Below are positions 5,071 through 64,000 of a stretch of 64,000 bases of DNA, piece after piece. The notes beneath the pieces were generated by a model. It saw only the letters and a program-made list of their open reading frames with translations, had not been told where the DNA came from and made no database searches. Source of the DNA: Mariniblastus fucicola. Lineage in GTDB: Bacteria; Planctomycetota; Planctomycetia; Pirellulales; Pirellulaceae. A program made the translations under genes and the position numbers. How positions within the stretch are numbered: position 1 is the stretch's first letter; each line of letters begins with the position of its first letter. The stretch spans positions 5,890,001-5,954,000 of the forward strand of contig NZ_CP042912.1 in assembly GCF_008087665.1 (NCBI RefSeq), written 5' to 3'.

Positions 5071-5181
5071 ATTCAACAGATTTCGAACACCAAGTGCTGC
5101 AGGGCAAAATCGAAGGCTCGAGATTCGAGACCGCGAACGAGTTCTCGGCCGGAGCATCCGAACCCGATCGGAATGGCGCAG

Positions 5182-5209
5182 AAAAAAAGCCCACCGAATG
5201 CGGTGGGCT
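5182..5209 (-). terminator. Rho-independent terminator of the lysine-rich protein gene
   Basis: On the minus strand a 9-bp perfect stem (AGCCCACCG / CGGTGGGCT, loop CATT) is followed by a run of T. It lies just past the stop of the 5230-5685 gene. Confidence 0.9.
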
Positions 5210-5229
5210 GTGTGTGAAAGAGCGTCGGC

Positions 5230-46419: not shown

Positions 46420-49400
46420 ATGCCAGACAACTGGATCACGATCTCGGAATCCCAATTTCCTTGGGAACGAGAAGCACTTGAGTTCATTCGCTCTCAGTTT
46501 CCCAGCCACGAACCGTACCGGGCGTGGTCTAACTTTGAATTCATCGCCCACGATGGATCAATTAACGAAGTTGACCTCCTTGTCTTTTCACGTGTCGGTT
46601 TCTTTCTGATCGAAATCAAAAGTAAACCCGGGATCCTCTCCGGTGACGCCGGTACGTGGACTTGGGAAACCGATGGCCGACGGTCCTACATGGACAACCC
46701 GTATTCGGCAGCCAACCTCAAATCAAAAAAGCTCACTTCGCTGTTAAAAAGCCAGCGAGCGGCCAAGGGTAAACATCAAGTGCCGTGGCTTGACGCTATC
46801 GTGTTCCTTTCCGCAGAGAATTTGAAATGCGAACTTACAGGAAGTGCTCGAACCCACATCACTCTCAGGGATCGCGAAGCTGGCCCTGATGTGAAGGCCC
46901 GCGATGGCATCATGGCTACCATCACTCGCCGAAAGTGTCCGGGACTGGACACCAACCTGCGGGGAGAATTTAACAAGCCAGTTTCAAAGATGATCGCTCA
47001 GGCGATGTTGCAAGCCAAGATTCGGCCTTCGCAGCGATATCGAAAGGTCGGCGATTACAAGCTCAACCAAATCATTGGTGAAGGGCAAGGCTATCAAGAC
47101 TGGGACGCAAACCACGTTCAGCTAAACAATAGCAACCGGCGTATTCGGATTTACAACTTGCGTTCCAACGCACCGGAAGACGAACGAGAAACTTTGCAGC
47201 GAGCGGCCAAGCGTGAAGCCGAACTTCTTGAGGGGCTTCAGCATCCCGGTGTGTTGAGACGTGAAGGCTACACCATGCACGAGCTTGGTCCAGCCTTGAT
47301 CTTCGAGCACAATCCAAGCGCAATTCGGCTTGATCACTACATCAAGCAAAAGCACGAAGAGCTAACTGACGAAGAGCGTTGTCGACTGCTGCGACAGATT
47401 GCAGAAACGGTCCGGTTTGCGCACGAAAAGCAAACTTACCATCGCGGTCTTTGCCCCCAAAGCATTCTTGTCGACAAAAGCAACCGGCTCTCCAACGTCA
47501 AGATTTTTAACTGGCAACTGGGTTTTCGCCAAAGCCCAGATACAGAACGCCATTCTCGAATCGTAACGGCGACTTCGCACATTGATCGACTGATCGACGA
47601 AGCCAGCACAGCATACCTTGCCCCAGAGGCTGGTTCATCCGATCACGCATCAGGAGAGAAATTAGACGTCTTCTCTCTGGGTGCCATTGCCTATCACTTG
47701 TTCTCGGGTGAATCTCCGGCCGCTAACGGAATTGAGCTTGCCGAAAAACTTCGTGGCAGTGATGGGCTGAAAATTCGATCGGTGCGACCAGCTGTTGACC
47801 AGCTGCACGACCTCATCGAATGGAGCACCAATCCTGTTGTCGGTTCACGCGTGATGGATTCGGTCGAAGACTTTCTCGAAATGCTCGTGGCCGTAGAACA
47901 GGAGATGGTCAAAGTCGAACAGTCGTTCGTCGAAGACCCTACGGATGCCAAGCCCGGCGACGTTATCGCAGGAGAGTATCTGATTCATCGCCGCATTGGT
48001 CATGGAGCAACTTCGTACGCGTTTCTTGTCCAAAAAGAAGACGATTACTTCATTGCAAAAATTGCCAGTGACGAAGAGCACAACTCACGCTTGAAAGAAG
48101 AAAGCGAAGTGCTTTCCAAGCTTCGTCATGCCAACATCGCTGAGTTTGTCGAAAACGTAACCGTAGGCGACCGCCACACGATTATTATCAAGCCAGCGAT
48201 CGCCAATAAAGAAAAACTGTCGATTGAAACGCTTCGCCACCGATTGAAAGAAGACGGTGCGTTACACATCGACTTGTTGCAACGCTTTGGCGACGACTTG
48301 CTCAATGCTGTCAGCTTCCTCGAAGATCAGGGCTACAACCACCGGGACATCAAGCCCGACAATGTTGCGGTCGGCCAAGTTGGTTCCGGCGATCGCCTGC
48401 ATCTGGTCTTGTTCGACTTTTCTCTCACTCGGGTGCGAGCAGACAACCTGCAAGCCGGAACGCCCGGCTACCTCGACCCCTTGTTACCCTTACGGAAGAA
48501 CAAGCAGTGGGATTCCTACGCAGAAAGATACGCAGCCGCAGTAACGCTGTATCAAATGGCGACTGGCCTCAACAACTTTCCGGTTTGGAGCGACGACGGA
48601 ACCGACCCTACACAACTGGAATCCGACGCAGAGATCGACGCAGAATTATTTGCTGCCAACATTCGCGATTCGCTTATCGACTTTTTTGAGAAAGCATTCT
48701 CTCGCAAGATCGAAAACCGGCACGACAATGCCGAACAGATGCGTCGCGACTGGAACGATTGTTTTCGTGATCTGGAGGAGCCCGGGGAATTCCTGTCCGA
48801 GCTAGGTGAAGACGAACTCAAAAAGAAGCTTGAATCGGCGACCCTCGAAACGTCAATTACAGACTTGGGGCTGGGGACACGTGCGATCAACGCCCTTGAT
48901 AGAAACGACATAACCACCGTTGAGCAACTATTGAGTGCCGGTCGTGGTCGAATCCACCGGCTCAAGGGGATTGGGCACACAACGCGCCGACACATCAATC
49001 GAGTTCTGGTTCAGCTGCAAAACAATCTTCAGAAACCAGTCACGGTTCAAGAGGCGCAGGAAGAGACTGACCATCTGCCCGAAACGAATGTCGAACGCCT
49101 CAGCATCGACCAGATGTTCAAACGAGTGTCTGGCGTTGGCCGTCAACAAGGAGAAGAAGCTCGTGCGATTCTGCCCTTGATATTCGGGACAGATGCAAAG
49201 TTCGACAAAGCGTGGGCTGGCAGTGCGGAGATCGCCCAACACACCAAAGCCGATCGGCAACAGGTCGTGGATTGGATGAAGGCATTCAGGGATCGTTGGG
49301 CCAAGGATGCTGCGATCACCAAGCTGCGAAAGGACATCAACGAGCTGCTTGATTCGGTTGGCCAAGTCATGTCGGCACGGGATATCGCGTCGGCACTTTT

Positions 49401-50592
49401 GGTAACTCGTGGCAGCCATCAACTGGAACCATTTCGTTCTCAGTTCGCACTGGCTGTCACTCGAGTTGCGGTTGAAGTTGAACGCAACATGGCAAAGCCT
49501 AAATTCATCGCACGTCGGACCAACGCTGGATCGGTCATCGTTGCCTCACGTGATGAGTTAATCTCGGTCGCTGCAAAACTTGGAGCCGGTGCCGACAAAC
49601 TCGCTGCCAATGAAACCATCGTTTCACCTGCCCGAGCGATCAAGTTGTTGCGTTCACTCAACGAAGAACTCACAACTCATATTAGCGACTCGAACTTGGT
49701 GCGATTGGCGGCCAGCATTTCCCAAAACGCAGCGCTTTCATCGCGAAACGAGTTTTATCCCAACGGAATGTCTGCTGAACGGGCCATTAAGCTCTCTCAG
49801 AATGTGCTCTACGGCAGCGACACGCTTTCCGTTGCTGATTTGAAATCACGCGTCAAAAGTCGATACCCTCAATGTGCCGACATTCCCGATCCGCCGCAGC
49901 TAAACGAGATCCTCAAAAACGCCGGTTTCGACTACCGCTGGAACAGTTCGGCTGCTGCCTATGAGAACCCGGCACGTGACCAAGTCATTCACACCACCGG
50001 CACGAACACGCTTTCCCGTTATTCCACATCGCTCTCCAGTGGTGGTCCGGGGGAGGTTACACCGGAAATTGCCGATGCACGTCAGTTCGAAGAACGAATC
50101 GAACATGCATTGAAACAGGGTGCACTGCTCGCGTTGAATGTCAAAGCCAACTACTACGACGACGCCATTCGCGAAGTCACGCGGCGGTGTGGCGTCGACC
50201 TGTTCGATCTCGAAGAGAATTTCATCGAGTTGCTGCGTGAAAAAGCGACTGAAGCTGAAGTGTCATGGCAGCAATTGTTGGATGTTGATGCACAGCCCGG
50301 GCAAGGCCACTGGGACAACTTGTTGATCCTGATCGACCGAGTCATTGAGGAGCTAAAAAAGAGAGTTCTCGAATCAGACAAAACCGTATTGATGACTTTC
50401 ACGGGTGTCCTCGACCATTACCAGCGAAAACAACCGTTTATCGCAGACCTTGCTGAGCACATCCACAAAGAGCTTCACGGTCTCTGGATTTTGTTGCCGG
50501 ATCAGGAACACGTCCCCACAACCACTGCCAGCGGCCAAGCTCCCATTCCAAAAGGTTGGCTGCAAAACCTTCACCGAGGAGCAGGCGTCTAA
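46420..50592 (+). CDS. pglW: BREX-2 serine/threonine kinase PglW
   Basis: 1390 residues. Residues ~10-120 form a NERD domain (FEFIAHDGSINEVDLLVFSR, then FFLIEIKSKPG), a nuclease-related fold. Residues ~210-480 are a first kinase domain with a degenerate catalytic loop, HRGLCPQSILV near 341 (Asp replaced) and no DFG, so a pseudokinase. Residues ~520-775 are a second kinase with IGHGATSYAFLV near 525, FIAKIA, HRDIKPDNV near 641 and DFS near 666, so probably active. An HhH-like segment lies near 811-867 (RIHRLKGIGHTTRRHIN). The C-terminal ~500 residues are unassigned. PglW is the BREX-2 kinase, thought to signal or regulate the methylation/exclusion machinery. It opens the cluster. Confidence 0.88.
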   Translation: MPDNWITISESQFPWEREALEFIRSQFPSHEPYRAWSNFEFIAHDGSINEVDLLVFSRVGFFLIEIKSKPGILSGDAGTWTWETDGRRSYMDNPYSAANLKSKKLTSLLKSQRAAKGKHQVPWLDAIVFLSAENLKCELTGSARTHITLRDREAGPDVKARDGIMATITRRKCPGLDTNLRGEFNKPVSKMIAQAMLQAKIRPSQRYRKVGDYKLNQIIGEGQGYQDWDANHVQLNNSNRRIRIYNLRSNAPEDERETLQRAAKREAELLEGLQHPGVLRREGYTMHELGPALIFEHNPSAIRLDHYIKQKHEELTDEERCRLLRQIAETVRFAHEKQTYHRGLCPQSILVDKSNRLSNVKIFNWQLGFRQSPDTERHSRIVTATSHIDRLIDEASTAYLAPEAGSSDHASGEKLDVFSLGAIAYHLFSGESPAANGIELAEKLRGSDGLKIRSVRPAVDQLHDLIEWSTNPVVGSRVMDSVEDFLEMLVAVEQEMVKVEQSFVEDPTDAKPGDVIAGEYLIHRRIGHGATSYAFLVQKEDDYFIAKIASDEEHNSRLKEESEVLSKLRHANIAEFVENVTVGDRHTIIIKPAIANKEKLSIETLRHRLKEDGALHIDLLQRFGDDLLNAVSFLEDQGYNHRDIKPDNVAVGQVGSGDRLHLVLFDFSLTRVRADNLQAGTPGYLDPLLPLRKNKQWDSYAERYAAAVTLYQMATGLNNFPVWSDDGTDPTQLESDAEIDAELFAANIRDSLIDFFEKAFSRKIENRHDNAEQMRRDWNDCFRDLEEPGEFLSELGEDELKKKLESATLETSITDLGLGTRAINALDRNDITTVEQLLSAGRGRIHRLKGIGHTTRRHINRVLVQLQNNLQKPVTVQEAQEETDHLPETNVERLSIDQMFKRVSGVGRQQGEEARAILPLIFGTDAKFDKAWAGSAEIAQHTKADRQQVVDWMKAFRDRWAKDAAITKLRKDINELLDSVGQVMSARDIASALLVTRGSHQLEPFRSQFALAVTRVAVEVERNMAKPKFIARRTNAGSVIVASRDELISVAAKLGAGADKLAANETIVSPARAIKLLRSLNEELTTHISDSNLVRLAASISQNAALSSRNEFYPNGMSAERAIKLSQNVLYGSDTLSVADLKSRVKSRYPQCADIPDPPQLNEILKNAGFDYRWNSSAAAYENPARDQVIHTTGTNTLSRYSTSLSSGGPGEVTPEIADARQFEERIEHALKQGALLALNVKANYYDDAIREVTRRCGVDLFDLEENFIELLREKATEAEVSWQQLLDVDAQPGQGHWDNLLILIDRVIEELKKRVLESDKTVLMTFTGVLDHYQRKQPFIADLAEHIHKELHGLWILLPDQEHVPTTTASGQAPIPKGWLQNLHRGAGV

Positions 50593-50599
50593 CACGCAC

Positions 50600-50700
50600 G
50601 TAACGGTGGCTTCCAGCCGCCGTCCACACCAAACAAAAAAGTAGCGGTGGCTTCCAGCCGCCGACAACAACACACAACGGCGGCAAGCTGCCACCGCTAC
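50600..50700. repeat. Hairpin repeat cluster between pglW and pglX (copy 1)
   Basis: Two direct arms GTARCGGTGGCTTCCAGCCG (50600-50622, 50641-50663) are followed by an inverted arm CGGCGGCAAGCTGCCACCGC (50678-50700). The arms can pair as a long stem, and each contains a short internal hairpin. The same arms occur inside pglX and between pglX and pglY. Confidence 0.92.
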
Positions 50701-50710
50701 CGGATTCAAC

Positions 50711-53700
50711 ATGATCAACCGAACCAGCCTCCTTAACGACCTTCGCGACCTCCTCAAAACCCTTGAGGCCGACCTGCTTGCGCGAAGCGAAAGCGACGAA
50801 GTTCCCGAAGTCGTTCAGGCCCTTGCTGACGAATACGACAAAGCCAAACAAGCCGAACGAACGGCACTCTCCTTTGAAGACTGGCGGAACGACTTCATCA
50901 CTCAGATGGCAGCGGCATGGGTATTGAGCTGTGTGTTCGTTCGTTTCCTGGAAGACAACCAGCTACTGGAACACCCGCAGATCTCTGGTCCTGGTGATCG
51001 ACTGCAGTGGGCGCGCGATCAGCATCAGGTTTACTTTACGAACCACCCAACCGAATCGGATCGTGAATACCTGTTGAAAATCTTTGGTGAGATTCGCGAC
51101 CTCAGCCATGGAGCCGGCGGGGATGTCTTTGGCAAACACAATTTCATCTGGCAATTGCCCAACTGGCTTGGCGGTGATGCGGCCAGTGAGCTGTTGAAGT
51201 TTTTCCGTACCATCAATCCAGACGATGGCACGCTGATTCATGACTTTACTGATCCCGATTGGGATACTCGTTTCCTGGGTGATCTGTACCAAGACCTGTC
51301 CGAAAAGGCCCGTAAGAAATACGCGTTGTTGCAGACGCCTGATTTTGTTGAAGAGTTCATCCTTGATCGCACGCTTGAACCAGCCTTGGACGAGTTTGGA
51401 CTCCAGCCATCTATCAGCGGCGAGGCGCTATCCGCCGGTTCCGATGAGCAACCAACCGGCCACTTCAAAATGATCGACCCGGCCTGTGGTAGTGGTCACT
51501 TTTTGCTCGGTGCGTTTCCGAGGATTTTGAAGCGTTGGAAAGAACAGGAACCAGAGACAAACATTCGCGAGTTGGTGCAGCGGACACTCTCTTCGATTCA
51601 CGGAGTGGATATCAACCCGTTTGCGATCGCGATTGCCCGGTTTCGTCTGCTGCTGGCGGCGCTGGCGGCCAGTGGTGTGAGGCGTCTGGCGGATGCTCCC
51701 GCTTATGCGATGAATCTGGCGTGCGGCGATTCGCTGTATCACGGCGTCGAGCGGCAACAGACGCTGGGCGACTGGACGGACGAGTCGCACTATTTCCGCA
51801 CCGAAGACGCCGACAATCTAAGACGCATTTTGCAGGAAGGAACCTTTCATGCCGTCGTCGCAAATCCACCCTACGTAACACCCAAGGATGCGGCCGCGAG
51901 AGATGCATACAAACGACTATATGCGTCTTGCTACATGAAATACTCACTGGCAGTACCGTTCATGGAACGAGTATTTCGATTGGCGAAGAACAACTCCGAA
52001 TCGGGGTTTTCGGGCCAGATAACGGCGAACAGCTTCATGAAGCGAGAGTTTGGCAAGAAGTTGATCGAGGATTACTTGCCGACAATCGACGTAACACACG
52101 TTGTAGATACAAGTGGGGCGTACATCCCCGGACATGGCACGCCTACCGTAATAGTGTTTGGGCGCAATCGGGCACCGACCAGTTCTACGATCCGGACCAT
52201 CATGGGAATTCGTGGCGAACCAGCTACTCCAAGTGACCCGTCCCAAGGTCTTGTCTGGGCAGATATCACTTCTCAGATGGATCGCGTAAAACACACGGGC
52301 AAGTTCACCAGCGTTTCAGAGTCAACCAGAGATCGATTCTCAAGTCATCCGTGGTCTATCGGCGGCGGTGGCGCTGCAGAGTTGAAAGAGGCTCTAGACG
52401 GAACAACCACTCGAAGGCTTGCGGACGAAGTAGCGGAGACTGGCGTCTTCGGAATTACCGCAGCCGATGACGTCATGTATGCACCAGCGCCTTCCTTCGC
52501 GAGGAGGAACGTAGAGCGAGAGTCTTACCGTCGGCTTATTGTGGGCGACGAAGTGCGAGACTGGTCAATCCATCCGGGCGACAGTGTATTGTTTCCTTAT
52601 GAATCGGAGGCGTTGATTGATCTGCGCGAACGCGTTGGCCACTACCGATGGCTATGGCCCAATAGGACCGTGCTTTGGAGTCGAGCTACATTCGCGAAAA
52701 AGACGTATCGAGAAGAGGGCCGGACGTGGTGGGAATGGCATCAGACCACATTGAGCCGGTTGCGGACCCCGGAATCGATTACGTTCGGTGAAGTTGCTAC
52801 TCACAACCACTTCGTCCGAATTAGCGGCAGAAGTCTGTTCAAGCAAACTGCTCCAATTGTGAAGTTGGCAACACACGCTTCACAAGATGACCATGACCGC
52901 TTGCTGGCCCTGCTGAATAGCTCCAGCGGCGCATTCTGGCTGAAGCAGATATGTCAGCCAAAAGGGTCGAGCGGCATTGGTCGAGGTAGTTACGACGAAG
53001 CGTGGGAGAAACACTTTGCCTTTAACGGGTCAAAGTTGGCCCCGTTTCCGGTGCCCAGTTCGATCCAAACAATCCTGCCGAATCAACTTTCTTTGTACGG
53101 AGCGGGCATTACCCGTATCGTTGGCAGTGTTAGTACAACGGCAGCAAAAACGGCACTCGGGGGCCACATTCTCGACAGTAGCCGGAGCTATGGAGAGACG
53201 TTGGGCGAGATGATCCGGCTCCAAGAAGACCTCGACTGGGAATGCTACCGTCTTTACGGTTTGCTTGAGGACGACCTGACTTACCCGACCGAAGAATCAC
53301 TGGGCATCCAGCTCGGCGAGCGTGCCTTCGAGATCGTGTTGGCCCGCAAGATGGCTCGCAGCGAAGTGGCGACCACGTGGTTTTCGCGGCACGGCAGCCA
53401 GCCCATCACAGAGCTGCCCAGCCACTGGCCCGACGATTACAAACAACTCGTTCAAAAACGAATTGATGTCATCGAGTCCGACAAGAACATCGCGCTCATC
53501 GAACAGCCCGAATACAAACGACGCTGGAACACCACGCCGTGGGAGGAACAGGTCCAAAAGGCACTCAAGTCGTGGTTGCTCGATCGGCTGGAAAGCTATT
53601 TTGATTTCGATGGCCGCATGAAGGATAGTAGCGGTGGCTTCCAGCCGCCGAGCAGTGACGGTGATGAAAATGGCGGCAAGATGCCGCCGGTACCACACGA

Positions 53701-54652
53701 CGGCGACAAGATGCCACCAGTACAGGAGGACGGCGGCAAGATGCCACCGCTACGGGAGATCGCCCTTTACTCCCTTTCCAAACTGGCAGCCGTCGCTTCG
53801 GAAGATCCGCAGTTTATGGAAGTCGCGGAAGTCTATCGCGACGATCCGGCCTTTGACGTTTTGGCCTTGATCGAAGATCTCGTCGCCGCAGAACATGTCC
53901 CATTGCTGCCGGTCCTCCGTTACAAACCCGCCGGAATCCGCAAACGAGCCGAATGGGAACAAACGTGGCAGTGGCAACGACTGGAAGACGAACTTCGCGA
54001 CGGCAAGCCCTTTACCGACTCGCGCGTCCGCTCTCTGGCAGACGACTGCGGTATTACCGATCAACAACAATCCGACATCGAAGCATGGCAACAAAAAACC
54101 ACTCCCGAACAACGCTCTGACACAACCGCCCCGATTGCTCGTGAGCTGGATGCGATCCTATCCATCACCGTACCGCCCAAATACAAGAGCAGCGATTTCA
54201 TTTCCACCGGCGGAGCCAAGTTCTGGAAGCTACGTGGAAAACTGGACGTCCCCAAAGAACGCTGGGTCAGCTTCCCGCACTGCGAAGGGAACGATGGCAC
54301 GATGATGATCGCCTGGGCTGGCTATGACCACTTGCAACTGGCCCGCGCCATCAGTGCCCACTACGTCGACATCAAGAACAACCTCGGCGGCAACGAAGAC
54401 CCGCGACTTGTTCCGCTGTTGGCCGGGATCATGGAACTGTTGCCATGGCTGCACCAGTGGCACAATGAAGTTGATCCCGAGTTCGACATGCGAATGAACG
54501 AATACTACGACAACACCTTCGTGGAATCCAACGCGGCCGAACTGTGCTTGTCGCGAGAAGAAATCAGAAACTGGCAACCGCCGAAAAAGAAACCCAAACG
54601 GCGATCCAAAAAGAAAGCCACGAAGAAAAAGAAGGAAACAACAGATGCTTGA
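50711..54652 (+). CDS. pglX: BREX-2 adenine-specific DNA methyltransferase PglX (copy 1)
   Basis: 1313 residues. An N-terminal helical region (residues 1-240) is followed by the methyltransferase core: motif I DPACGSGHFLLGAF near 256 and motif IV VVANPPYVTP near 382, giving N6-adenine activity with SAM. A target-recognition region lies at about 480-870, then helices. In BREX, PglX methylates host DNA to mark self and is required for phage exclusion. Residues ~973-1016 are a Gly/Pro/Met-rich linker encoded by inserted hairpin repeats (GGKMPPVPHD and relatives). The C-terminus is basic (KKKPKRRSKKKATKKKK). A diverged paralogue starts at 61336. It follows pglW after a repeat-filled 118 bp. Confidence 0.92.
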   Translation: MINRTSLLNDLRDLLKTLEADLLARSESDEVPEVVQALADEYDKAKQAERTALSFEDWRNDFITQMAAAWVLSCVFVRFLEDNQLLEHPQISGPGDRLQWARDQHQVYFTNHPTESDREYLLKIFGEIRDLSHGAGGDVFGKHNFIWQLPNWLGGDAASELLKFFRTINPDDGTLIHDFTDPDWDTRFLGDLYQDLSEKARKKYALLQTPDFVEEFILDRTLEPALDEFGLQPSISGEALSAGSDEQPTGHFKMIDPACGSGHFLLGAFPRILKRWKEQEPETNIRELVQRTLSSIHGVDINPFAIAIARFRLLLAALAASGVRRLADAPAYAMNLACGDSLYHGVERQQTLGDWTDESHYFRTEDADNLRRILQEGTFHAVVANPPYVTPKDAAARDAYKRLYASCYMKYSLAVPFMERVFRLAKNNSESGFSGQITANSFMKREFGKKLIEDYLPTIDVTHVVDTSGAYIPGHGTPTVIVFGRNRAPTSSTIRTIMGIRGEPATPSDPSQGLVWADITSQMDRVKHTGKFTSVSESTRDRFSSHPWSIGGGGAAELKEALDGTTTRRLADEVAETGVFGITAADDVMYAPAPSFARRNVERESYRRLIVGDEVRDWSIHPGDSVLFPYESEALIDLRERVGHYRWLWPNRTVLWSRATFAKKTYREEGRTWWEWHQTTLSRLRTPESITFGEVATHNHFVRISGRSLFKQTAPIVKLATHASQDDHDRLLALLNSSSGAFWLKQICQPKGSSGIGRGSYDEAWEKHFAFNGSKLAPFPVPSSIQTILPNQLSLYGAGITRIVGSVSTTAAKTALGGHILDSSRSYGETLGEMIRLQEDLDWECYRLYGLLEDDLTYPTEESLGIQLGERAFEIVLARKMARSEVATTWFSRHGSQPITELPSHWPDDYKQLVQKRIDVIESDKNIALIEQPEYKRRWNTTPWEEQVQKALKSWLLDRLESYFDFDGRMKDSSGGFQPPSSDGDENGGKMPPVPHDGDKMPPVQEDGGKMPPLREIALYSLSKLAAVASEDPQFMEVAEVYRDDPAFDVLALIEDLVAAEHVPLLPVLRYKPAGIRKRAEWEQTWQWQRLEDELRDGKPFTDSRVRSLADDCGITDQQQSDIEAWQQKTTPEQRSDTTAPIARELDAILSITVPPKYKSSDFISTGGAKFWKLRGKLDVPKERWVSFPHCEGNDGTMMIAWAGYDHLQLARAISAHYVDIKNNLGGNEDPRLVPLLAGIMELLPWLHQWHNEVDPEFDMRMNEYYDNTFVESNAAELCLSREEIRNWQPPKKKPKRRSKKKATKKKKETTDA
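53628..53753. repeat. Hairpin repeat inserted in the pglX reading frame with 30-bp tandem units (copy 2)
   Basis: Left arm GTAGCGGTGGCTTCCAGCCG (53628-53650). Then three tandem 30-bp units at 53672, 53702 and 53732, each beginning GGCGRCAAGATGCCRCC. The last ends as the right arm GGCAAGATGCCACCGCTAC. All are in frame, so unit gain or loss adds or removes ten residues without frameshift. Confidence 0.92.
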
Positions 54653-54664
54653 TCCTCAACCTAC

Positions 54665-54734
54665 GTACGGTGGCTTCCAGCCGCCGAACTGCTTAGCAAA
54701 CTAAAAACGAACGGCGGCAGGATGCCACCGCTAC
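54665..54734. repeat. Hairpin repeat between pglX and pglY (copy 3)
   Basis: Left arm GTACGGTGGCTTCCAGCCGC (54665-54686) and inverted right arm CGGCGGCAGGATGCCACCGC (54712-54734). It fills most of the 110-bp gap between the two genes. Confidence 0.92.
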
Positions 54735-54762
54735 TGAGTAATCCAAAACCAAACGATCGAAA

Positions 54763-57700
54763 ATGACACTACTCAACGAACTCATCGAAATTCCGGAACA
54801 GCTGGACGAAAGCCAATTCGTCATCAAGCTAACCGAAGGCGTCTCCGACGGAAAAGAAACTGTCGACAACTACGTCGTCACCAAAGACATCGCAGCACGT
54901 TTTGAAGAAGCTCTGGGCTATATCAAGATGTCGATGGATGATGGGAAAAGCCGGGCCTGTTATCTACACGGTAGTTTTGGCAGCGGTAAAAGTCACTTCA
55001 TGGCGATCTTGCACCTGCTGCTGACGGGTGACACTCACGCTCGTGGCATCAACGAGCTGGCAGGTACGATCACCAAGCATTGCACTTGGATGGACGGCAA
55101 GAAATTCTTGCTGGTTCCGTATCACATGATCGGCAGTAACTCCAGTGAAACGGGAATTCTGGGCGGCTACGCCAAGTACATCAGCAAGATCCATCCCGAG
55201 GCTCCGATCCCCGGGGTCTATCGCGCGCAAGACATGTTTGCCGATGCGATCAAGCTACGAGACAAAATTGGAGAGGTGCCTTTTTATAAAGGAATCAATG
55301 ACGGTGTTTCTGCTGGCGGCGGTTTCGGGAATGTTACTAGAACATGGGACAATGATCGTTTGGAGAAAGCGATGTTGCTCAAAGAAGGCGAAGAAGAGCG
55401 CAGCCTTTTAATCTCGGCCTTGAGCAAAGCTTATTTTTCATCGTACGGTGTTCAGGTCGAAAATGAAACTAAGAAATTCGTTGATTTGGAAGACGGCTTG
55501 GCGATCATGTGCCAACACGCCAAATCGTTGAAGTACGATGGCGTCATCTTGTTCTTGGACGAACTAATTTTATGGCTGTCTGGTAAAGCAAACAATCTTG
55601 ATTTCATTACTCAAGAATGTGCCAAATTAGTTCAGCTAGTCGAAACGGAGAACCTCGGCGAACGCCCGATTCCGTTGATCAGTTTTATCGCACGACAACG
55701 TGACTTGAACGAGTTGGTGGGTGAAAACGTTCCCGGTGCAGCGAAGTACAACTACAACACATTGCTTAACCACAACTCCCAACGCTTTCATACGATCACA
55801 TTGCCCGATAGCAACCTGCCTGCAATCGCCGAACGCCGAGTGCTGTCTTGCAAGAACGCCAGCGCGCAAAAGGAGCTGCATGCTTCGTTTGAGAAACTTG
55901 CGGAAGACGGCAAGAACAAACATGCCGTCGAGGCGTTGATGACGGGCGGCTACGACAAAGGAATGTTCCGCAAAATCTATCCGTTCAGCCCGGCACTCGT
56001 TCAGACTCTCATTGCCGTTTCCAGTTTGCTGCAACGTGAGCGAACTGCGCTCAAGGTTATGAAGCATTTGCTGGTTGAAAAACGTGGTGAACTAAAAGTT
56101 GGTGACTTGATTCCGGTAGGCGACCTGTTTGATATGGTCGCTTATGGCGAAGGTGGCTTCAGTACCGAAATGAAAGAGCACTTTGAAAACGCAAAGAAAT
56201 TATACAGCCGCAAGCTGCTTCCAGAGTTGGAAAAGAAACACAAGATAACACTGGAGCAGTACAAAGAGCTGCCCGTCGATGATCCGGCTCGGCGGCGATT
56301 TCAAAACGATGACCGGTTGGCGAAGACGTTGCTTCTATCAGCGTTGGTGCCGGATGTAGAAGCTCTTCGCGGGCTCACTGCACGCCGACTTGCCTATCTG
56401 AACCATGGCACCATCAAGGTCGTCAATCCAGGCGAAGAAGGGGCAATGGTCCTCCAGAAGATTCGCGATTGGGCCAAGATGATCGGTGCGATCAAGATTG
56501 GAGACGGTGCCGATCCGATGATTACCGTACAGCTTTCCAGCGTCGATACCGATTCAATCATCGCCAAGGCCGAACGTGTCGACAACAACGGTAATCGTCA
56601 ACGCTTGGTCCGACAAACGTTGACGGAACTGCTGAATCTAGGTGAAGAAAACACGCTTCAGCGTTGCCATTTCTATGACTGGAAATGGAAGAACACCGAC
56701 CGCGAGTGCATTGTTGTTTTCCAGAATGTCTGGGAACTGTCGATGTCAGACATTCGCAACGAAGACGATCGCTGGAAAATCATCATCGACTACCCGTTCG
56801 ACCATTCCGATCGCGGGCCGATGGACGACATCAGCAAGCTGAATGAGTTTCGAGAGGCAAACAAAGAGGGAACCAAAACCATCGCATGGTTGCCTTCCTT
56901 CTTCAGTGATGAGGCAAGCCGTGACTTGGGTTTGCTTGTTCGGCTGAATCACATCCTGTCCGGCGATCAGTTCGACAATTACGTGGGGCATCTTTCCATG
57001 CAAGACCGACCGGCCGCCCGGGCCAGTTTGGACAGCCAACGGAATGTGCTCAAAGAGCGTTTGCGGGGGCACTTGGAAGCCGTTTACGGTCTGGCAACGA
57101 ACGCCGAATCACTTCACCCGACCCATCACCTGAACCAAGGCGAACAGTTTGCATCGCTCACCAATGGTCTAAACGTACGCCCACCGGCCAAGCCGAATTT
57201 CCAAGAAGCCCTTGAGCAGATTTTGGATCAAGCACTCTGTCATGAATTCCCCGGCGCTCCGGAGTTCGAAGCACCCGTCACATCGGGAGCTGCCAACAAA
57301 GTTTTCGACTACGTCTCGCGGGCTTGCCAGACCAAAGACAACCGAGTCGAAGTTGAGCAACGCGACCGACCGCTGGTTCGTGGAATCGTCAATCCGCTGA
57401 ATCTTGGACAGCTCGGTCACGACCGTACCCATTTGGTCGTTGGCGACGAATGGAAAAATCACTTTATCAAAAAAGCATCAGCCGATGGTGGCGAACTGAC
57501 CGTTGAGAAACTGAAGGCGTGGATTGATGAACCGCAAAAGAAGGGCCTGCCAAAGTATCTGAACAATCTGTTGGTCATTGCCTATGCACTGCAATCCGAC
57601 CAAGCGTTCTATCAGCACGGCAGCGTCTACTCCGAACCGTCGTTAAAAGACCTGCCGAACTGTGAGCTTCGCCCCGAGGCAAAACCGGCGGCCGATAAAT

Positions 57701-58440
57701 GGCTATCGTCACGGGACCTTGCGTCCTTCATTTTTGGCGTCACGGCGTCCGAGCTGAACAGTGCTGCCAACGCAGCCAAACTGGCTGAAGAGGTCAAGAA
57801 AGTCGTCAGTGAAAATGCGGCAAATGTTGAGTCTTATCGGACTCAGGTTTCATCGGCCCTTACCAAACTGGGAGTCGGTCCCGATCAATCGAAACGAATG
57901 CAGACCGCCAACGCGTGCGTTTCGTTGTTTTCGCAAATTCAATCCAACAGCTCAGGCAATGACATTGTCAACGCGATTGCTGACTTCTCCATTCCAACCA
58001 CTAAGGAAGCAATGGGAGAGTGTTGTAAAGGCGGCGGCGGTTTGGCTGATTTCCTGAAAGGTTTTGAGTTTGGCTGGTTTGAAAATATCAAAGCGTTAGC
58101 TGGAAACAAAAAAACCGAAGCTGACAATGTTCTTGCTGAGGTCAAACTCGCTTTATCGGAAGACGAGCATGTAAAACCGCTTCGTTCCACGTTTGAAGCC
58201 GCTGAATCGACGGCTGTCAGATTGTTGCGTCCAGACGATCCAGCGCCGCAACCAGAGCCCGGACCTGAACCGCAACCACCCGCCCCGCCCGGCGTGCAGA
58301 TCGTTGATCGAGGCAACAGCAGTCGCATCGACGTTGCCGAGGTCGAAACGCTTCTCGGTTCGTTGAAGTCCAATCTGAAACCGAACCAAAAAATCAAGCT
58401 CGACGTCTCTTGGACCATCGAAGAAGAGTCGGGAGAGTAA
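54763..58440 (+). CDS. pglY: BREX-2 ATPase PglY
   Basis: 1225 residues. Walker A CYLHGSFGSGKSHF lies at about 66-79. Walker B DGVILFLDELILWL lies at about 260-273. A long multi-domain body follows, with an ATPase-type C-terminal region (SARTIMVG-like arginine finger not identified). The C-terminus carries a Pro-rich linker (DPAPQPEPGPEPQPPAPP) before a conserved tail domain (VEVETLLGSLKSNLKPNQ-like). PglY is the large P-loop ATPase of BREX-2, equivalent to BrxC in other types, and is needed for phage resistance. It begins 110 bp after pglX, with a hairpin repeat in the gap. Confidence 0.9.
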   Translation: MTLLNELIEIPEQLDESQFVIKLTEGVSDGKETVDNYVVTKDIAARFEEALGYIKMSMDDGKSRACYLHGSFGSGKSHFMAILHLLLTGDTHARGINELAGTITKHCTWMDGKKFLLVPYHMIGSNSSETGILGGYAKYISKIHPEAPIPGVYRAQDMFADAIKLRDKIGEVPFYKGINDGVSAGGGFGNVTRTWDNDRLEKAMLLKEGEEERSLLISALSKAYFSSYGVQVENETKKFVDLEDGLAIMCQHAKSLKYDGVILFLDELILWLSGKANNLDFITQECAKLVQLVETENLGERPIPLISFIARQRDLNELVGENVPGAAKYNYNTLLNHNSQRFHTITLPDSNLPAIAERRVLSCKNASAQKELHASFEKLAEDGKNKHAVEALMTGGYDKGMFRKIYPFSPALVQTLIAVSSLLQRERTALKVMKHLLVEKRGELKVGDLIPVGDLFDMVAYGEGGFSTEMKEHFENAKKLYSRKLLPELEKKHKITLEQYKELPVDDPARRRFQNDDRLAKTLLLSALVPDVEALRGLTARRLAYLNHGTIKVVNPGEEGAMVLQKIRDWAKMIGAIKIGDGADPMITVQLSSVDTDSIIAKAERVDNNGNRQRLVRQTLTELLNLGEENTLQRCHFYDWKWKNTDRECIVVFQNVWELSMSDIRNEDDRWKIIIDYPFDHSDRGPMDDISKLNEFREANKEGTKTIAWLPSFFSDEASRDLGLLVRLNHILSGDQFDNYVGHLSMQDRPAARASLDSQRNVLKERLRGHLEAVYGLATNAESLHPTHHLNQGEQFASLTNGLNVRPPAKPNFQEALEQILDQALCHEFPGAPEFEAPVTSGAANKVFDYVSRACQTKDNRVEVEQRDRPLVRGIVNPLNLGQLGHDRTHLVVGDEWKNHFIKKASADGGELTVEKLKAWIDEPQKKGLPKYLNNLLVIAYALQSDQAFYQHGSVYSEPSLKDLPNCELRPEAKPAADKWLSSRDLASFIFGVTASELNSAANAAKLAEEVKKVVSENAANVESYRTQVSSALTKLGVGPDQSKRMQTANACVSLFSQIQSNSSGNDIVNAIADFSIPTTKEAMGECCKGGGGLADFLKGFEFGWFENIKALAGNKKTEADNVLAEVKLALSEDEHVKPLRSTFEAAESTAVRLLRPDDPAPQPEPGPEPQPPAPPGVQIVDRGNSSRIDVAEVETLLGSLKSNLKPNQKIKLDVSWTIEEESGE

Positions 58441-58449
58441 ACAACATCC

Positions 58450-61182
58450 ATGAGTGACCTCAAACGATCACATTTGATTGCCGGAGTATCATCGTTGCCG
58501 CAGAAGAAGCTGCAACGCGTGGTCGGCGTACGCTCCTCCATCAGTTGGAGCGGCGACATTGAAAGCGAAGTCAATGGAATCCGATACTGCATCCGACAAT
58601 GCGATTCGCCCTTAGCGGTTCGTGAGTTCATCCGCTCTGCCGTCGACGGGGCCATCAATATCGCCGTCACCAACATGGACGAAGAAACCATCGGCATGGA
58701 CGCGATGTTGCGAATGGCCAGTACTCGCCTGCTAACCATCGACCGTTGGCAACTGGTCAAAGACCGCTTCCACGCCCGTTCGATTGATCCGCGAATCACC
58801 AAACACGATTGGTTGGCCGACCTGATGTTGGACATTCCCCGAGTCCAACCCGTCGCGGGCGGGTTTTTGGATGCGGAAACCGTCTGGCCCATCACGTTGC
58901 AATCCGCCCTTGGCATGAATGCCGAAACTCTGGACCTGCACAACATTCTTAGCTGGTCGCGAAACCCAGAATACGTCCAGCGATGGAAACAGATGCCGGA
59001 TGAATTCAAATCTACGGCAACCGAGTGGATGTCGGCAACGGCAGGAAAAACCGCTCAGTTGGTTCTTGCATGCGTGGAAAAGAACAACATGCCCGATGCA
59101 CTACCCATCGGATTGGTGTTGGATGTGTTACTGAATTCAGAACACAAACACGAGATGGCCAATCACCTGATTCGTTTGGAAGAACGGATGCTGGGTGTTT
59201 CCAATCCCTCGCAAGAACACCTGAACCAGTGGGCGGCCGCCTCCAAAGACCTTGTCCGATTCCAAATGGAAGCCAGCACTTCCGAGCTGAAGCAAGTCCT
59301 CAGTCGGGCCGATGCAATCTTGAAGGAGCTTGGAGCGGACAAGATGTGCTTCCTCAGCGATGTTTCGCCGATCGGATTCCATCAGCGACTGACCAACTTT
59401 GGCATCGCCCTTTCCACGCAACTTGGGACAAGCGACTTTGCCATTTCCGAGATGCTCAAAGACCGCTACCGGCGGATCTTTGACCACATGAAAGCACCGA
59501 TGGAGCCACTAAGGTTGGAACGCATCAAGATGGCGATCCGACTGCTTCGTTGGCTTGGCAGTCAGCACCAACAAACGGTCTCCTTTGACGCTCTCGATCA
59601 AGCGATTGACTACCAACTGGGCGAAGCCAGTTTTGTCGACTGGGCTCGACTGAAGATTAACGCAGTCGAGCCTTCTCAGGAGTTATCAGCCGCATTTGAA
59701 AAGCTGTTCACGAAAGTCGCCGATCTTCGCCACACTCAGGCCGAACGTTTCGCCGGTCTGTTTCAGGATTCCATTCGCCTCAACAGCAACTCTGACCAGT
59801 TCTCTGGCGTCGAGACCTTACTGAAAGATGTTGTCGCACCGCTGGCGGAGGATCGCCCAATTCTGTTGGTCGTACTCGACGGAATGAGCACCGCCGTCTT
59901 CCGGGAGCTGATGCAGGACATCGTGCATCGAGACTGGTACTGGCTGTTCCGTGAAGGCCGGGGCAAAGTCGACGGAGCATTGGCAGCAGTTCCCAGTGAA
60001 ACCAAACGTTCTCGTTGCAGTTTGCTGGCCGGTCGTTTCCTGATCGGCAACAAAGACGTTGAGTCTCGCGAGTTCCCCAAGCATCCCGAATTGCTTCGTT
60101 GCTGCAAATCGGACCATCCTCCTGAAATCTTCCACAAATCCGACATCGCACCGGGCGATGAAAGCGACCTGTCCACCAACGTTCGGGCTTCGATTCAAGA
60201 CGCCAACAAACAAGTCGTAGCCGTGGTCGTCAACGCGATCGACGACCATCTGGGCAAGAGCCAGCAATTGGAAACGATCTGGTCACGCGATGCGATCAAA
60301 GTCCTGCCATTGTTGCTTCACGAGGCCAAGACTTCCGAGCGTCTGGTCGTTTTGGTTAGCGATCACGGGCACATCATCGAAACGGGCACGGAGTACAAAG
60401 CCCACGATGGCGGCGGAGAGCGCTGGCGTCCTGATGACGGCAAACCCGGCGACCAAGAATTGCGATTGGAAGGACAGCGTGTCGTTACTGATGGCCAACC
60501 GGTGATCGTTCCTTGGTCAGAGCGTATTCGCTACACACGTGGGAAGAACAACGGTTACCACGGCGGCATCAATCCACAGGAGATCGTGTTCCCCGTTGCC
60601 GTTTTATCTCCCACAGAAGACTTTCCGGCTGGCATGACCGAATACACGCTGGAAGATCCGGCTTGGTGGGACGAGCAATACTTCCATCCACCGCAGGCGG
60701 ATGACAACGATCAGGCTGAGCGAGAAATCCCCACGGGATTGCTATTCGACATCTACGGCCCCGACCCCGATGGCAACACCGAAGAGCCCGTGAAAACAGA
60801 ATTGGCCGAAGCCCCCGCCGTTCCGGGAGCACTCGATTCGATGGCGGAACAACGAGCCGAAATCCAAACGCCACAATGGCTGAAAAATCTGCTCGATTCC
60901 ACCCTGTTTGAATCGCAGATGGAGTTTGGCAAGCGTAACCGTTTAACCCCGGAAAAGATCCGCGACGTGCTGGTTGAATTGGAACGTGGTGGCGGCAAGA
61001 CAACATCCAACGCTCTCGCCCGAGCCGTAAATCAACCTCCGATCCGCATGCGTGGATTCATTACCAGCATCATGCGTGTCTTGAACATCGAAGCCTACGA
61101 GATTCTCCGTATGGATGAAGCTTCCGGCACGATCGAATTGAACAAGCCCCTGTTGTTACGTCAGTTCGAGATTGAGGAATGA
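58450..61182 (+). CDS. pglZ: BREX-2 phosphatase-like protein PglZ
   Basis: 910 residues. It is the marker protein of BREX. The alkaline-phosphatase-superfamily core has LLVVLDGMSTAVFRELMQ near 472-489 (metal Asp). AVVVNAIDDHLGK near 590 and RLVVLVSDHGHIIETGTEY near 632-650 (Asp-His metal site) follow. The N-terminal ~450 residues are helical and the C-terminal ~180 may bind partner proteins. The gene starts 9 bp after pglY with an ATG, so translation is likely coupled. The precise substrate in BREX is not established. It is of normal length and no motif is missing. Confidence 0.92.
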   Translation: MSDLKRSHLIAGVSSLPQKKLQRVVGVRSSISWSGDIESEVNGIRYCIRQCDSPLAVREFIRSAVDGAINIAVTNMDEETIGMDAMLRMASTRLLTIDRWQLVKDRFHARSIDPRITKHDWLADLMLDIPRVQPVAGGFLDAETVWPITLQSALGMNAETLDLHNILSWSRNPEYVQRWKQMPDEFKSTATEWMSATAGKTAQLVLACVEKNNMPDALPIGLVLDVLLNSEHKHEMANHLIRLEERMLGVSNPSQEHLNQWAAASKDLVRFQMEASTSELKQVLSRADAILKELGADKMCFLSDVSPIGFHQRLTNFGIALSTQLGTSDFAISEMLKDRYRRIFDHMKAPMEPLRLERIKMAIRLLRWLGSQHQQTVSFDALDQAIDYQLGEASFVDWARLKINAVEPSQELSAAFEKLFTKVADLRHTQAERFAGLFQDSIRLNSNSDQFSGVETLLKDVVAPLAEDRPILLVVLDGMSTAVFRELMQDIVHRDWYWLFREGRGKVDGALAAVPSETKRSRCSLLAGRFLIGNKDVESREFPKHPELLRCCKSDHPPEIFHKSDIAPGDESDLSTNVRASIQDANKQVVAVVVNAIDDHLGKSQQLETIWSRDAIKVLPLLLHEAKTSERLVVLVSDHGHIIETGTEYKAHDGGGERWRPDDGKPGDQELRLEGQRVVTDGQPVIVPWSERIRYTRGKNNGYHGGINPQEIVFPVAVLSPTEDFPAGMTEYTLEDPAWWDEQYFHPPQADDNDQAEREIPTGLLFDIYGPDPDGNTEEPVKTELAEAPAVPGALDSMAEQRAEIQTPQWLKNLLDSTLFESQMEFGKRNRLTPEKIRDVLVELERGGGKTTSNALARAVNQPPIRMRGFITSIMRVLNIEAYEILRMDEASGTIELNKPLLLRQFEIEE

Positions 61183-61267
61183 TCCATACACCAAAATACA
61201 AGCCCGAAGCGTTGCGACCCCTAGCGTCGCTCGCGAGTGGTTCCCAAGCACCTTCAGAGACGAATAC

Positions 61268-61302
61268 TTTGCGTCTCTGCGACCTCGCGTCTTTGCGTTA
61301 AA
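61268..61302. repeat. Degenerate TTTGCGTCT-type repeat before the second pglX
   Basis: The segment tttgcgtctctgcgacctcgcgtctttgcgtt is a run of near-repeats of TTTGCGTCT / CTCGCGTCT. Such tracts are common intergenic repeats in environmental bacterial genomes (recalled pattern, not searched). It sits in the 153-bp gap between pglZ and the second pglX. Confidence 0.6.
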
Positions 61303-61335
61303 TCCAAATCAACCCAACCCGAAAGCCAACCACCC

Positions 61336-64000
61336 GTGATTAATCGCGAAACACTCCTCAGCGACCTGCAAGACCTTGTTCAGAAACTTGAGCTGGATCT
61401 GATTGCTCGTTCCGACGAAGACAGTGTGCCGGAGGTACGTGATGCGTTGAACGCAGAATTCAAAAAAGCGACCGAGGCGGAGCGGACGGCACTCTCCAAA
61501 GAGAAATGGCTGACCGACTACGCCGTGCAGATGGCGGCGGCGTGGGTGTTGAACTGCGTCTTTGTGCGCTTCCTCGAAGACAACCAACTGATCCAGCCGC
61601 CACGCCTGTCCGGGCCGGGCGATGCACTGCAATATGCCAAAGACCAACATCAGGTCTTCATCAGCCAGCATCCTGACGATTCGTTGCGTGAGTATTTGTT
61701 GGGCATCTTTCAAGAGATGGAACAGCTTCCCGGCTGTGCCGATCTGTTTGGCAAACACAATCTGGTCATGCAGTTGCCGAACTGGTTAAGCGGTGATGCG
61801 GCCGGTTTGGTTTACAAGTTCTTTCAGGAGATCAACTCCGACGATGGCTTGTTGGTTCATGACTTTACGGATCCTGAGTGGGACACGCGATTCCTTGGCG
61901 ATCTGTATCAGGATCTATCAGTACATGCGAGGAAGAAGTACGCGTTGTTGCAGACGCCTGATTTCGTTGAGGAATTTATTCTCGACCGGACGCTGGAGCC
62001 AGCTCTTGATGAATTTGGGTTAGAGGCCGAGCCGGTCAAAAACAAGCAGGGCGATGAGATCACCAGCAAAGGCTTCCGGATGATCGACCCCGCCTGCGGC
62101 AGCGGTCACTTTTTGCTGGGATCGTTTCCACGAATTCTGAAACGATGGCAAACGAAAGAGCCGAGCACCAACATTCGTGAACTGGTCCAGCGAACGCTGG
62201 ATTCAATACACGGTGTTGATATTAACCCGTTTGCGATCGCGATTGCGAGGTTTCGTTTGTTGCTGGTTTCATTGAAAGCATCTGAGTTCAGCAAGCTAGC
62301 GGACGCTCCAGCGTTCACAATGCATCTTGCGTGTGGAGACTCGCTGTATCACGGCGTGGGCCGACAGCAAGTTATGGAATTCACTGATGAAGCTCACTAT
62401 TTCCGCACCGAAGACTCAGCTGCACTAAAACGAATTTTAAAGAACCAGACATTTCACACTGTTGTAGCTAATCCTCCCTACATCACGCCAAAAGATCGTG
62501 CGGCAAACGCCGTCTACCGTGAACTGTACAGCACATGCCACAGGAAATACGCTCTTTCCGTACCGTTCATGCAGAAGATTTTTCAGTTGGCAGTTTCGGG
62601 CGAAATTGCCCAAGGCAGCGGATACACCGGACAGATTACTGCCAACAGTTTTATCAAACGTGAGTTCGGGAAAAAGCTAATTGAGAATTTCCTTTCAACC
62701 GTTGATTTGTTTGCAGTTGTTGACACTAGCAACGCATTCATCCCGGGCCACGCTACCCCAACTGTAATCGTGTTTGGAAGAAATCGCGCACCTGTCTCTC
62801 CAGACGTCCGCGTGGTTACCGGAAAGGCCGGTGAATCATGTACGCCTGTTGATCCAAGTAAGGGCCCTGTTTGGTTGGCCATTGTAAATGCACTTGACGC
62901 GGCGGGGACAGAAAATCGCATTGTGAGCTCGAAAGACATTTCGAGAGAGACTTTGAAAAAACATCCATGGTCGCTTGGAGGAGCTGCGGTTTCAGCTCTG
63001 AAAGAAAAGGTCGAAGCTAATGCATCAGGAACACTGGTCGACGAAATTGACGACATTGGGGTTTTTGGAATCACTGCTGCGGATGAAGTAATGTTGGCTC
63101 CTCCATCGGCCTTTAGCCGTTGGAGAATACCTTCGAAATATAGTCGACGCTTAGTTGTCGGTGATGAGGTTCGTGATTGGACTTGTGCAGATGGAGCTCA
63201 CGTTTGGTTTCCCTACGAAAACGAACAACTTGTGAAGCTTGACATCCACTCAAATGAATATCGGTGGATGTGGCCATTTCGCGCCTCGCTGTGGAGCCGT
63301 CAAACATTTGCGAAAAAGACCTATCAAGAAGAAGGACGGACTTGGTGGGAATGGCATCAGGTTACATTGCACAGACTGAAACTACCGTTAACGATCACAT
63401 TCCCGTTTGTCGCATCACATAATCATTTCAAGCTTGACGATAGTGGCTGTGTTTTCAACAGGTCTGTACCAATCATCAAGCTTGATCCAAAAAACACATT
63501 GGATGATTACTATGCAATCTTAGGATTTCTGAATAGCTCCATCGCTTGTTTTTGGCTGAAGCAAGTAAGCCAAAGAAAGCAAATGAGCGGTGGCGAAAGT
63601 ATCCGAATCCAAGACCTCTCTAAAGTTCCATTTGAGTACTCAACCACACAAGTCAAAAAAATTCCGATTCCAACTGGCTTTAGGAACCCGGAACTTCGTG
63701 AGCAACTGATAGCGGTAGCTAAACAACTTCACTTGTTGGGTGAGACTTTGGAACAAATTAGTCCCAGCAAGGTCATCGCAAATGCGCTGAACAACAAGAT
63801 TCCAGTCAAAGAAATTTGGTCTAAAGCTATCGAAGAAAAAAGATCTGCCAGATCAGCAATGATTTTATTGCAGGAGGAGTTGGACTTTATTGCCTATCGA
63901 ATGTTTGAAGTTTGCGAAGCCACTCTTCTAGGTGCAAATGTTGGAACTGGTACGATTGATGCGGGCCAAAGACCTTTTGAGCAGAGTTTTAGCACCCATC
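61336..64000 (+). CDS. pglX: Second BREX-2 adenine methyltransferase PglX paralogue, 3' end cut by window
   Basis: The frame is open from GTG at 61336 to the window end (888 codons). The start aligns with the first pglX (INRETLLSDLQDLVQKLELD versus INRTSLLNDLRDLLKTLEAD). Motif I DPACGSGHFLLGSF and motif IV VVANPPYITP are intact, so it should be catalytically active. The N-terminal half is highly similar to copy 1. The presumed target-recognition part is more diverged (SQRKQMSGGESIRIQDLSK versus a different loop in copy 1). This suggests a different DNA target or a specialised role. The C-terminus is not visible. Confidence 0.9.
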   Translation, partial: MINRETLLSDLQDLVQKLELDLIARSDEDSVPEVRDALNAEFKKATEAERTALSKEKWLTDYAVQMAAAWVLNCVFVRFLEDNQLIQPPRLSGPGDALQYAKDQHQVFISQHPDDSLREYLLGIFQEMEQLPGCADLFGKHNLVMQLPNWLSGDAAGLVYKFFQEINSDDGLLVHDFTDPEWDTRFLGDLYQDLSVHARKKYALLQTPDFVEEFILDRTLEPALDEFGLEAEPVKNKQGDEITSKGFRMIDPACGSGHFLLGSFPRILKRWQTKEPSTNIRELVQRTLDSIHGVDINPFAIAIARFRLLLVSLKASEFSKLADAPAFTMHLACGDSLYHGVGRQQVMEFTDEAHYFRTEDSAALKRILKNQTFHTVVANPPYITPKDRAANAVYRELYSTCHRKYALSVPFMQKIFQLAVSGEIAQGSGYTGQITANSFIKREFGKKLIENFLSTVDLFAVVDTSNAFIPGHATPTVIVFGRNRAPVSPDVRVVTGKAGESCTPVDPSKGPVWLAIVNALDAAGTENRIVSSKDISRETLKKHPWSLGGAAVSALKEKVEANASGTLVDEIDDIGVFGITAADEVMLAPPSAFSRWRIPSKYSRRLVVGDEVRDWTCADGAHVWFPYENEQLVKLDIHSNEYRWMWPFRASLWSRQTFAKKTYQEEGRTWWEWHQVTLHRLKLPLTITFPFVASHNHFKLDDSGCVFNRSVPIIKLDPKNTLDDYYAILGFLNSSIACFWLKQVSQRKQMSGGESIRIQDLSKVPFEYSTTQVKKIPIPTGFRNPELREQLIAVAKQLHLLGETLEQISPSKVIANALNNKIPVKEIWSKAIEEKRSARSAMILLQEELDFIAYRMFEVCEATLLGANVGTGTIDAGQRPFEQSFSTH

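Follow-up and report, generated by a model that had tools for sequence, protein, structure and literature searches.

We examined a 64-kb stretch of the Mariniblastus fucicola genome (contig NZ_CP042912.1, bases 5890001-5954000 of a 6,570,840-base single-contig genome that is 95% complete; hereafter the window), together with the 20 kb that follow it. Near its end the window enters a bacteriophage exclusion (BREX) locus of type 2, whose open reading frames (ORFs), followed into the next 20 kb, run in the order pglW-pglX1-pglY-pglZ-pglX2-brxD-brxHI. All seven genes were typed as BREX type 2 by PADLOC, and Pfam domains agreed for all except PglZ, in which no Pfam family was matched at E 0.001. 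The locus is a complete BREX-2 system of known type which carries a rare second full pglX gene.

The five genes that begin in the window lie on the forward strand. The first, pglW (46420..50592), encodes a protein of 1390 aa (PADLOC PglW, 1349 bits) with Pfam matches to NERD, Pkinase, PK_Tyr_Ser-Thr and RNA_pol_A_CTD, i.e. a NERD nuclease-like domain, two kinase domains and a domain resembling the C-terminal domain of RNA polymerase alpha. It is followed by pglX1 (50711..54652), encoding an N6-adenine methyltransferase of 1313 aa (PADLOC PglX, 1484 bits) with the common recognition module, termed form A below, by pglY (54763..58440), encoding a BrxC-type ATPase of 1225 aa (BrxC/PglY, 1323 bits), and by pglZ (58450..61182; 910 aa; PglZ, 768 bits). 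After a 153-bp spacer (61183..61335) comes pglX2 (61336..65169), which leaves the window at 64000 and encodes a second N6-adenine methyltransferase, of 1277 aa, with a rarer module (form B). Beyond the window, 3' of pglX2, lie brxD (65386-66708; PADLOC BrxD 664 bits, Pfam BrxC_BrxD 463 bits) and then brxHI (66862-68973; BrxHI 955 bits). The constituents required of BREX type 2 are present, namely the core of PglX, PglY/BrxC and PglZ, PglW with its NERD and kinase domains, the BrxD ATPase and the BrxHI helicase. What is not kept is the usual single pglX per locus, which is not a defining trait of the type.

An earlier note on the window had given the order pglW-pglX-pglY-pglZ-pglX and had expected brxD and brxHI past 64000. 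Its coordinates were right, the best PADLOC matches agree with its order, and both accessory genes were located where they were expected. It had also considered that the second pglX might be cut short just past the window; on extension, the gene was found to be open from a GTG start at 61336 to a stop ending at 65169, with no internal stop, the sole TAG reported in its genome match being the terminal one. Its PADLOC PglX score is 1281 bits entire and 1012 bits for the part inside the window. The genome holds one match to PglZ (E <= 1e-30) and two to PglX. The PADLOC model REase_MTase_IIG scored 1032 bits for copy 1 and 792 for copy 2, against 1484 and 1281 for PglX, and no nuclease family was found among the Pfam matches of either protein. 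As described, BREX type 2/Pgl systems (PMC12839542; Streptomyces coelicolor, PMC4365076) have six genes, W-X-Y-Z-D-HI, and the same PglW plan, whereas the Mariniblastus locus has an extra full pglX between pglZ and brxD. A second pglX is not mentioned in the text of the type-2 section of PMC12839542.

An alignment of PglX1 and PglX2 over 1248 residues gives 59% identity overall, with the lowest values in the recognition region (only 19% at 746-860). In steps of 30 residues, the ends are similar (53-91% at 1-510 and 56-93% at 961-1290), and the low zones lie at 511-570 (27-33%) and 751-840 (11-20%), between which identity rises to 77% at 661-690. By these steps the strongest divergence from PglX2 covers 52250..53527 of pglX1 (about residues 514-939), so the trough of identity is placed in the target-recognition region, which the earlier note had claimed to differ between the copies. 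The S-adenosylmethionine and NPPY motifs that it had seen in both were confirmed as DPACGSGH and NPPY, at residues 256 and 385 of copy 1 and 251 and 379 of copy 2. As for near-invariant columns of the chassis, by which we mean the N-terminal, methyltransferase and C-terminal parts, PglX2 keeps 119 of 119 and PglX1 118 of 119. Predicted models of both proteins align to BrxX/PglX structures, i.e. to a BrxX-like fold with a target recognition domain (TRD). In the fold search, CamA chains outrank BrxX/PglX for both models, and M.BseCI ranks above BrxX/PglX for copy 1 and slightly below for copy 2.

The two genes agree at 46 of 146 four-fold degenerate sites in the N part and at 42 of 89 in the C-terminal part (p 0.018 by Fisher's test, for a grouping made after the data were seen). 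Since most of these sites differ, the split between the copies is old. Recent gene conversion was rejected on the same ground, the C-terminal excess being weak. An assembly duplication is excluded in practice, because the genome is a single contig and only 46 of 146 N-part sites agree.

How rare the two-copy state is was assessed at several levels, in drawn or best-scoring loci, many of which are truncated by contig ends. In a draw of 392 genomes of the phylum, several of them fragmented (PglX at E 1e-30, two candidates scored per genome), 16 had PglX, and two separate full genes were seen only in the M. fucicola genome; within the family, 22 of 241 genomes had PglX. A single pglX was present in all 16 other contiguous planctomycete loci, that is, those with a whole pglX, pglY, pglZ and brxD in one stretch (genomes G121, G385, G373, G291, G048, G165, G016, G097, G496, G497, G495, G597, G534, G593, G422 and G407 in our numbering). 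This count leaves out G187 and G274, where the one pglX seen is cut at a contig end, G350, with a short pglX and no pglY, G237, G063, G320, G096, G191, G288 and G295, and the fragmentary G485, G401, G404, G578, G583, G399, G482, G609, G475, G579 and G602. In a wider sample, made of the best 80 of 563 confirmed PglX stretches, 79 loci had a single pglX and one, of Cellulomonas humilata (L155), had two; 41 of the 80, L155 included, span pglX to brxD, and locus L138 of the sample is the same as that of G016. The PglX of G485 and G583 are identical to those of a Pirellula sp. (L086) and of a Planctomycetaceae bacterium (L104). The statement of the earlier note that standard BREX-2 has one pglX agrees with these counts. 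With the exception of the window's own, no locus examined across the pglZ-brxD junction had a pglX there. No printed report of a BREX-2 locus with two pglX was found in a literature search that covered few subscription papers. Irregular pglX genes were reportedly noted by Goldfarb in 2015.

Some single loci deserve a remark. PglX pieces are present on two contigs each in G485, G401 and G404, and may represent one gene or two; in G485, the C-terminal part of a PglX lies on a 3-kb contig (C63, locus L183), in addition to the PglX of contig C244, which may point to another two-copy locus. In G350 (contig C2, L062 with L080), the pglX of a BREX-2 locus is reduced to a frame of 606 residues and pglY is missing between it and pglZ, possibly through deletion. 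About 2-5 kb separate pglX from pglY in G121, G373, G274, G597 and G583, compared with 110 bp in the window locus.

The ancestry of chassis and recognition modules was followed separately. From the fetched loci 102 full-length PglX were collected, of which 98 were aligned after 4 identical ones had been dropped. A chassis tree was built with IQ-TREE from residues 1-480 plus 1010-1290 (745 columns), using a subset of 33 of the 98 sequences that comprised the planctomycete ones and some close to them. In this tree PglX1 and PglX2 form a sister pair (100/100), with the PglX of G495 as their neighbour. The two also resemble each other over some 50 residues at 1098-1148; G121 has a shorter similar stretch, and the other printed rows are dissimilar there, as judged by eye. 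In a FastTree of the recognition region (98 rows), PglX2 joins six other form-B modules at 0.97, with that of G320 at 0.94, and PglX1 sits elsewhere with weak local support.

Form B is marked by RRWxGRQG (RPWxGRQG in G320) just after the recognition region, a label chosen after inspection. It occurs in 8 of the 98 PglX, namely PglX2 and seven others, all from planctomycete loci where the form-B protein is the only PglX seen; the remaining 90, PglX1 included, are without the marker. Because no other PglX was seen beside the form-B protein at these seven loci, the module of PglX2 is unlikely to be mere decay. On the 33-row chassis tree the form label changes 7 times for 8 carriers (shuffled mean 7.3), at least 6 changes being forced by the starred branches. 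From this scatter, recognition modules seem to have been exchanged between chassis lineages. The module of PglX1 and that of a Micromonospora locus (L134) are 47% identical over 746-945, and the chassis of the two are 44% identical over 1-480, so that module similarity here equals or exceeds that of the chassis. A first typing of modules by an RHG motif (28 of 98 'B') was dropped, as 21 of those rows look like form-A variants and the form-B row G534 had been set as A by a chance match; the marker above replaced it.

The two-copy locus of C. humilata (NZ_JABMCI010000067.1) has the BREX-2 order W-X-X-Y-Z-D-HI. As in Mariniblastus, two full pglX with similar ends and a divergent recognition region accompany one set of the other genes; unlike in Mariniblastus, the copies are adjacent and younger, belong to a distant bacterial group and both lack the form-B marker. 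Identity within the pair is 95% at 1-250, 80% at 251-480, 47% at 481-690, 89% at 691-745, 42% at 746-860, 56% at 861-945 and 90% at 1151-1290, and the edges of divergence are fairly sharp, near 690, 750 and 930. This second, younger and independent duplication has kept the ends and changed two recognition segments, which in our view speaks for selection of a second specificity and not for drift. A comparable principle is known from type I restriction-modification systems with several hsdS genes, where an exchangeable specificity part works on a common enzyme core. PglX differs in that it holds the methyltransferase in the same chain, so that the whole methyltransferase has been duplicated. In the BREX-1 locus of Lactobacillus rhamnosus there is likewise more than one pglX recognition region, but the second pglX is partial and lies beside an integrase (PMC7513527). 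The Mariniblastus locus is of BREX-2, both its copies are full length with only pglY and pglZ between them, and the combination of a partial second copy with an intervening recombinase was not found.

Palindromic repeats give some information on the origin of the operon. An element with the core GGTGGCWTCYWGCCGCC is present in the W-X1, X1-Y, X2-D and D-HI spacers and inside pglX1 (50600-50700, 53628-53757 and 54664-54734 of the window; 5174-5367 and 6718-6842 of stretch L002), so that the pglZ-pglX2 spacer is the only long spacer of the operon without such palindromes; its repeat-like stretch has no second place in the genome at up to 3 mismatches. A genome-wide family of repetitive extragenic palindromic (REP) sequences was expected, but the copies proved almost confined to the BREX locus: 16 of 18 genome places for a 23-base version with at most 2 mismatches, and 10 of 11 for an exact degenerate 17-mer. 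The 17-mer was found in 21 of 240 other genomes of the family; it is dispersed in other genera (154 places in G440, 54 in G429, 23 in G439 and 15 in G534). In the genus of M. fucicola itself, 3 of 27 other genomes carry it, at most twice. An exact 20-mer of the repeat was found in none of the 293 other phylum genomes drawn.

Since the repeats are nearly confined to the locus here and dispersed in other genera, acquisition of the operon is suggested. In the simplest reading, it would have come from a repeat-rich lineage and have already contained pglX1 and the 3' side of pglX2, and the two-copy state of pglX would then be older than the transfer. Alternatively, the repeat may have been amplified locally. 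No two-copy donor was found among the four repeat-rich genomes, of which only G534 has PglX, as a single copy. Within pglX1, the REP-like palindromes at 53628..53757 (repeat families D3, D6 and I7, supported by pattern matches and by comparison of linkers) are in frame on the coding strand and encode a Gly/Pro-rich linker (residues about 972-1012), which is missing from PglX2 and six printed relatives. In the PglX of G495, different odd stretches occupy this linker and 1098-1148, and these resemble one another. PglX linkers seem to tolerate inserted repeats.

The reading we favour, and consider probable on the strength of these comparisons, is simultaneous immunity at two motifs, in which both PglX would serve one set of kinase, ATPase, phosphatase and helicase. 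Both pglX genes are intact, their chassis are sisters, their recognition modules differ in form and the core is complete. The earlier note had proposed either two specificities on one core or a switchable spare copy. Of these, the former is supported indirectly, because the divergence lies in the recognition region of two intact copies and their modules differ in form, with the rarer form being used singly elsewhere. According to this reading, both pglX would be made from one operon and both products would be active, each able to join the single PglW-PglY-PglZ-BrxD-BrxHI machine and to methylate its own asymmetric motif. The cell would then use two motifs to distinguish self from non-self, and a phage would have to lack or protect both. 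In BREX-1, PglX reads an asymmetric motif, much of it through the TRD, and methylates an adenine (PMC11842806, PMC11341690), and designed changes in Salmonella PglX were mainly in the TRD, with TRD mutant 3 switching recognition at one position (PMC11341690). If both PglX act, a single PglZ would need to hold two methyltransferases in check; for Streptomyces Pgl, PMC4365076 describes PglX as toxic without functional PglZ, with PglW kinase activity and the PglY Walker A motif being needed. A consensus scan for promoters gave 1 site in the region against 5.1 expected from shuffles and is uninformative, so that the lack of a promoter-like site in the pglZ-pglX2 spacer carries no weight.

Several observations weigh against this reading. 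Low identity of recognition regions is no proof of different motifs, and the closest other form-B modules are only 30-31% identical to that of PglX2 over 746-945, so a form in common does not imply a motif in common. In the 30-residue steps at 361-480, the identity of PglX1 is higher to G495 (70-83%) than to PglX2 (53-70%), and in a FastTree of the N part the path from PglX1 to G495 is 0.50 as compared with 0.58 to PglX2, though the pair was joined at 0.958. Part of the PglX chassis may therefore be mosaic and the duplication history not wholly simple. Of 40 near-invariant columns in the variable half, 5 are altered in PglX2 and none in PglX1; these departures can probably be put down to form B, since the other seven form-B carriers are also without the form-A motif WFxRHGSxPIT. 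Finally, the bacteriophage exclusion cassette of Lacticaseibacillus paracasei Zhang has two methyltransferases, of which only pglX was required for N6-methyladenine (PMC10164179), so a second methyltransferase need not methylate.

Another explanation, which we regard as unlikely, is that only one PglX is the working specificity subunit and that the other is kept silent, as a reserve or as a source of recognition modules, and used through recombination. The C-part excess of identical four-fold sites is compatible with past conversion. However, most such sites differ in both parts, which argues against recent exchange, and both copies are full length with their motifs and near-invariant columns intact. 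The switchable spare of the earlier note, like this reserve copy, is disfavoured. The two pglX genes are direct copies 10.6 kb apart that share no exact stretch longer than 26 nt, and a G- or C-tract of at least 6 is absent from both. Nothing but pglY and pglZ lies between them, and recombination between direct copies would be expected to delete these two genes. Phase variation was rejected as a likely switch after both pglX had been scanned for G/C runs of at least 6, A/T runs of at least 7 and units of 2-6 repeated four times, as the only finds, a single A7 and two dinucleotide runs of four units, are in pglX2.

Slightly less likely still is a division of labour, with one PglX methylating the host and the other mainly sensing, restricting or regulating the first. 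The copies do occupy different positions in the operon, copy 2 adjoining brxD-brxHI, and in the L. paracasei Zhang cassette the second methyltransferase has been suggested to be regulatory (PMC10164179). Against this, both copies keep their catalytic motifs and chassis columns, and at the seven other loci a form-B PglX would presumably do the whole job. Passive duplication on the way to loss, with the second module drifting free of any selected function, is very improbable: the rarity of two-copy loci (1/80 in the wider sample, 0/16 among the contiguous planctomycete ones) is what a transient state predicts and the departures of PglX2 at near-invariant columns would fit it, but the old divergence has left no lesion in 1277 open codons and a complete set of chassis columns, and the module belongs to a form retained elsewhere.

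An HNH_2 endonuclease gene lies upstream of pglW (45157-46014, reverse strand), and past brxHI there is a gene for a large helicase with an RNase_H_2 domain and PADLOC matches to MkoA/MkoC (10505-13891 of L002, reverse strand), which suggests a wider defence island. Further upstream, a 614-aa ORF (42711-44555) matches no Pfam family at E 0.001; judged by eye from its motifs, it looks like a phage-type integrase.

Returning to immunity at two motifs, a broader and more tentative proposal, to which we give somewhat less than even odds, is that BREX-2 constitutes a multi-specificity platform. PglX would be its exchangeable subunit, composed of a fixed chassis and a mobile recognition module, and some loci would load two PglX of different form on one machine, the resulting two-motif immunity being checked by a single PglZ. 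Two intact PglX on one set of partners offer a natural test of whether PglX alone sets specificity, and the same locus bears on whether the BREX-2 methyltransferase marks host or phage DNA. It also lets different module forms be compared on sister chassis as they occur in nature. Should both PglX work, a phage that loses one motif would still be excluded.
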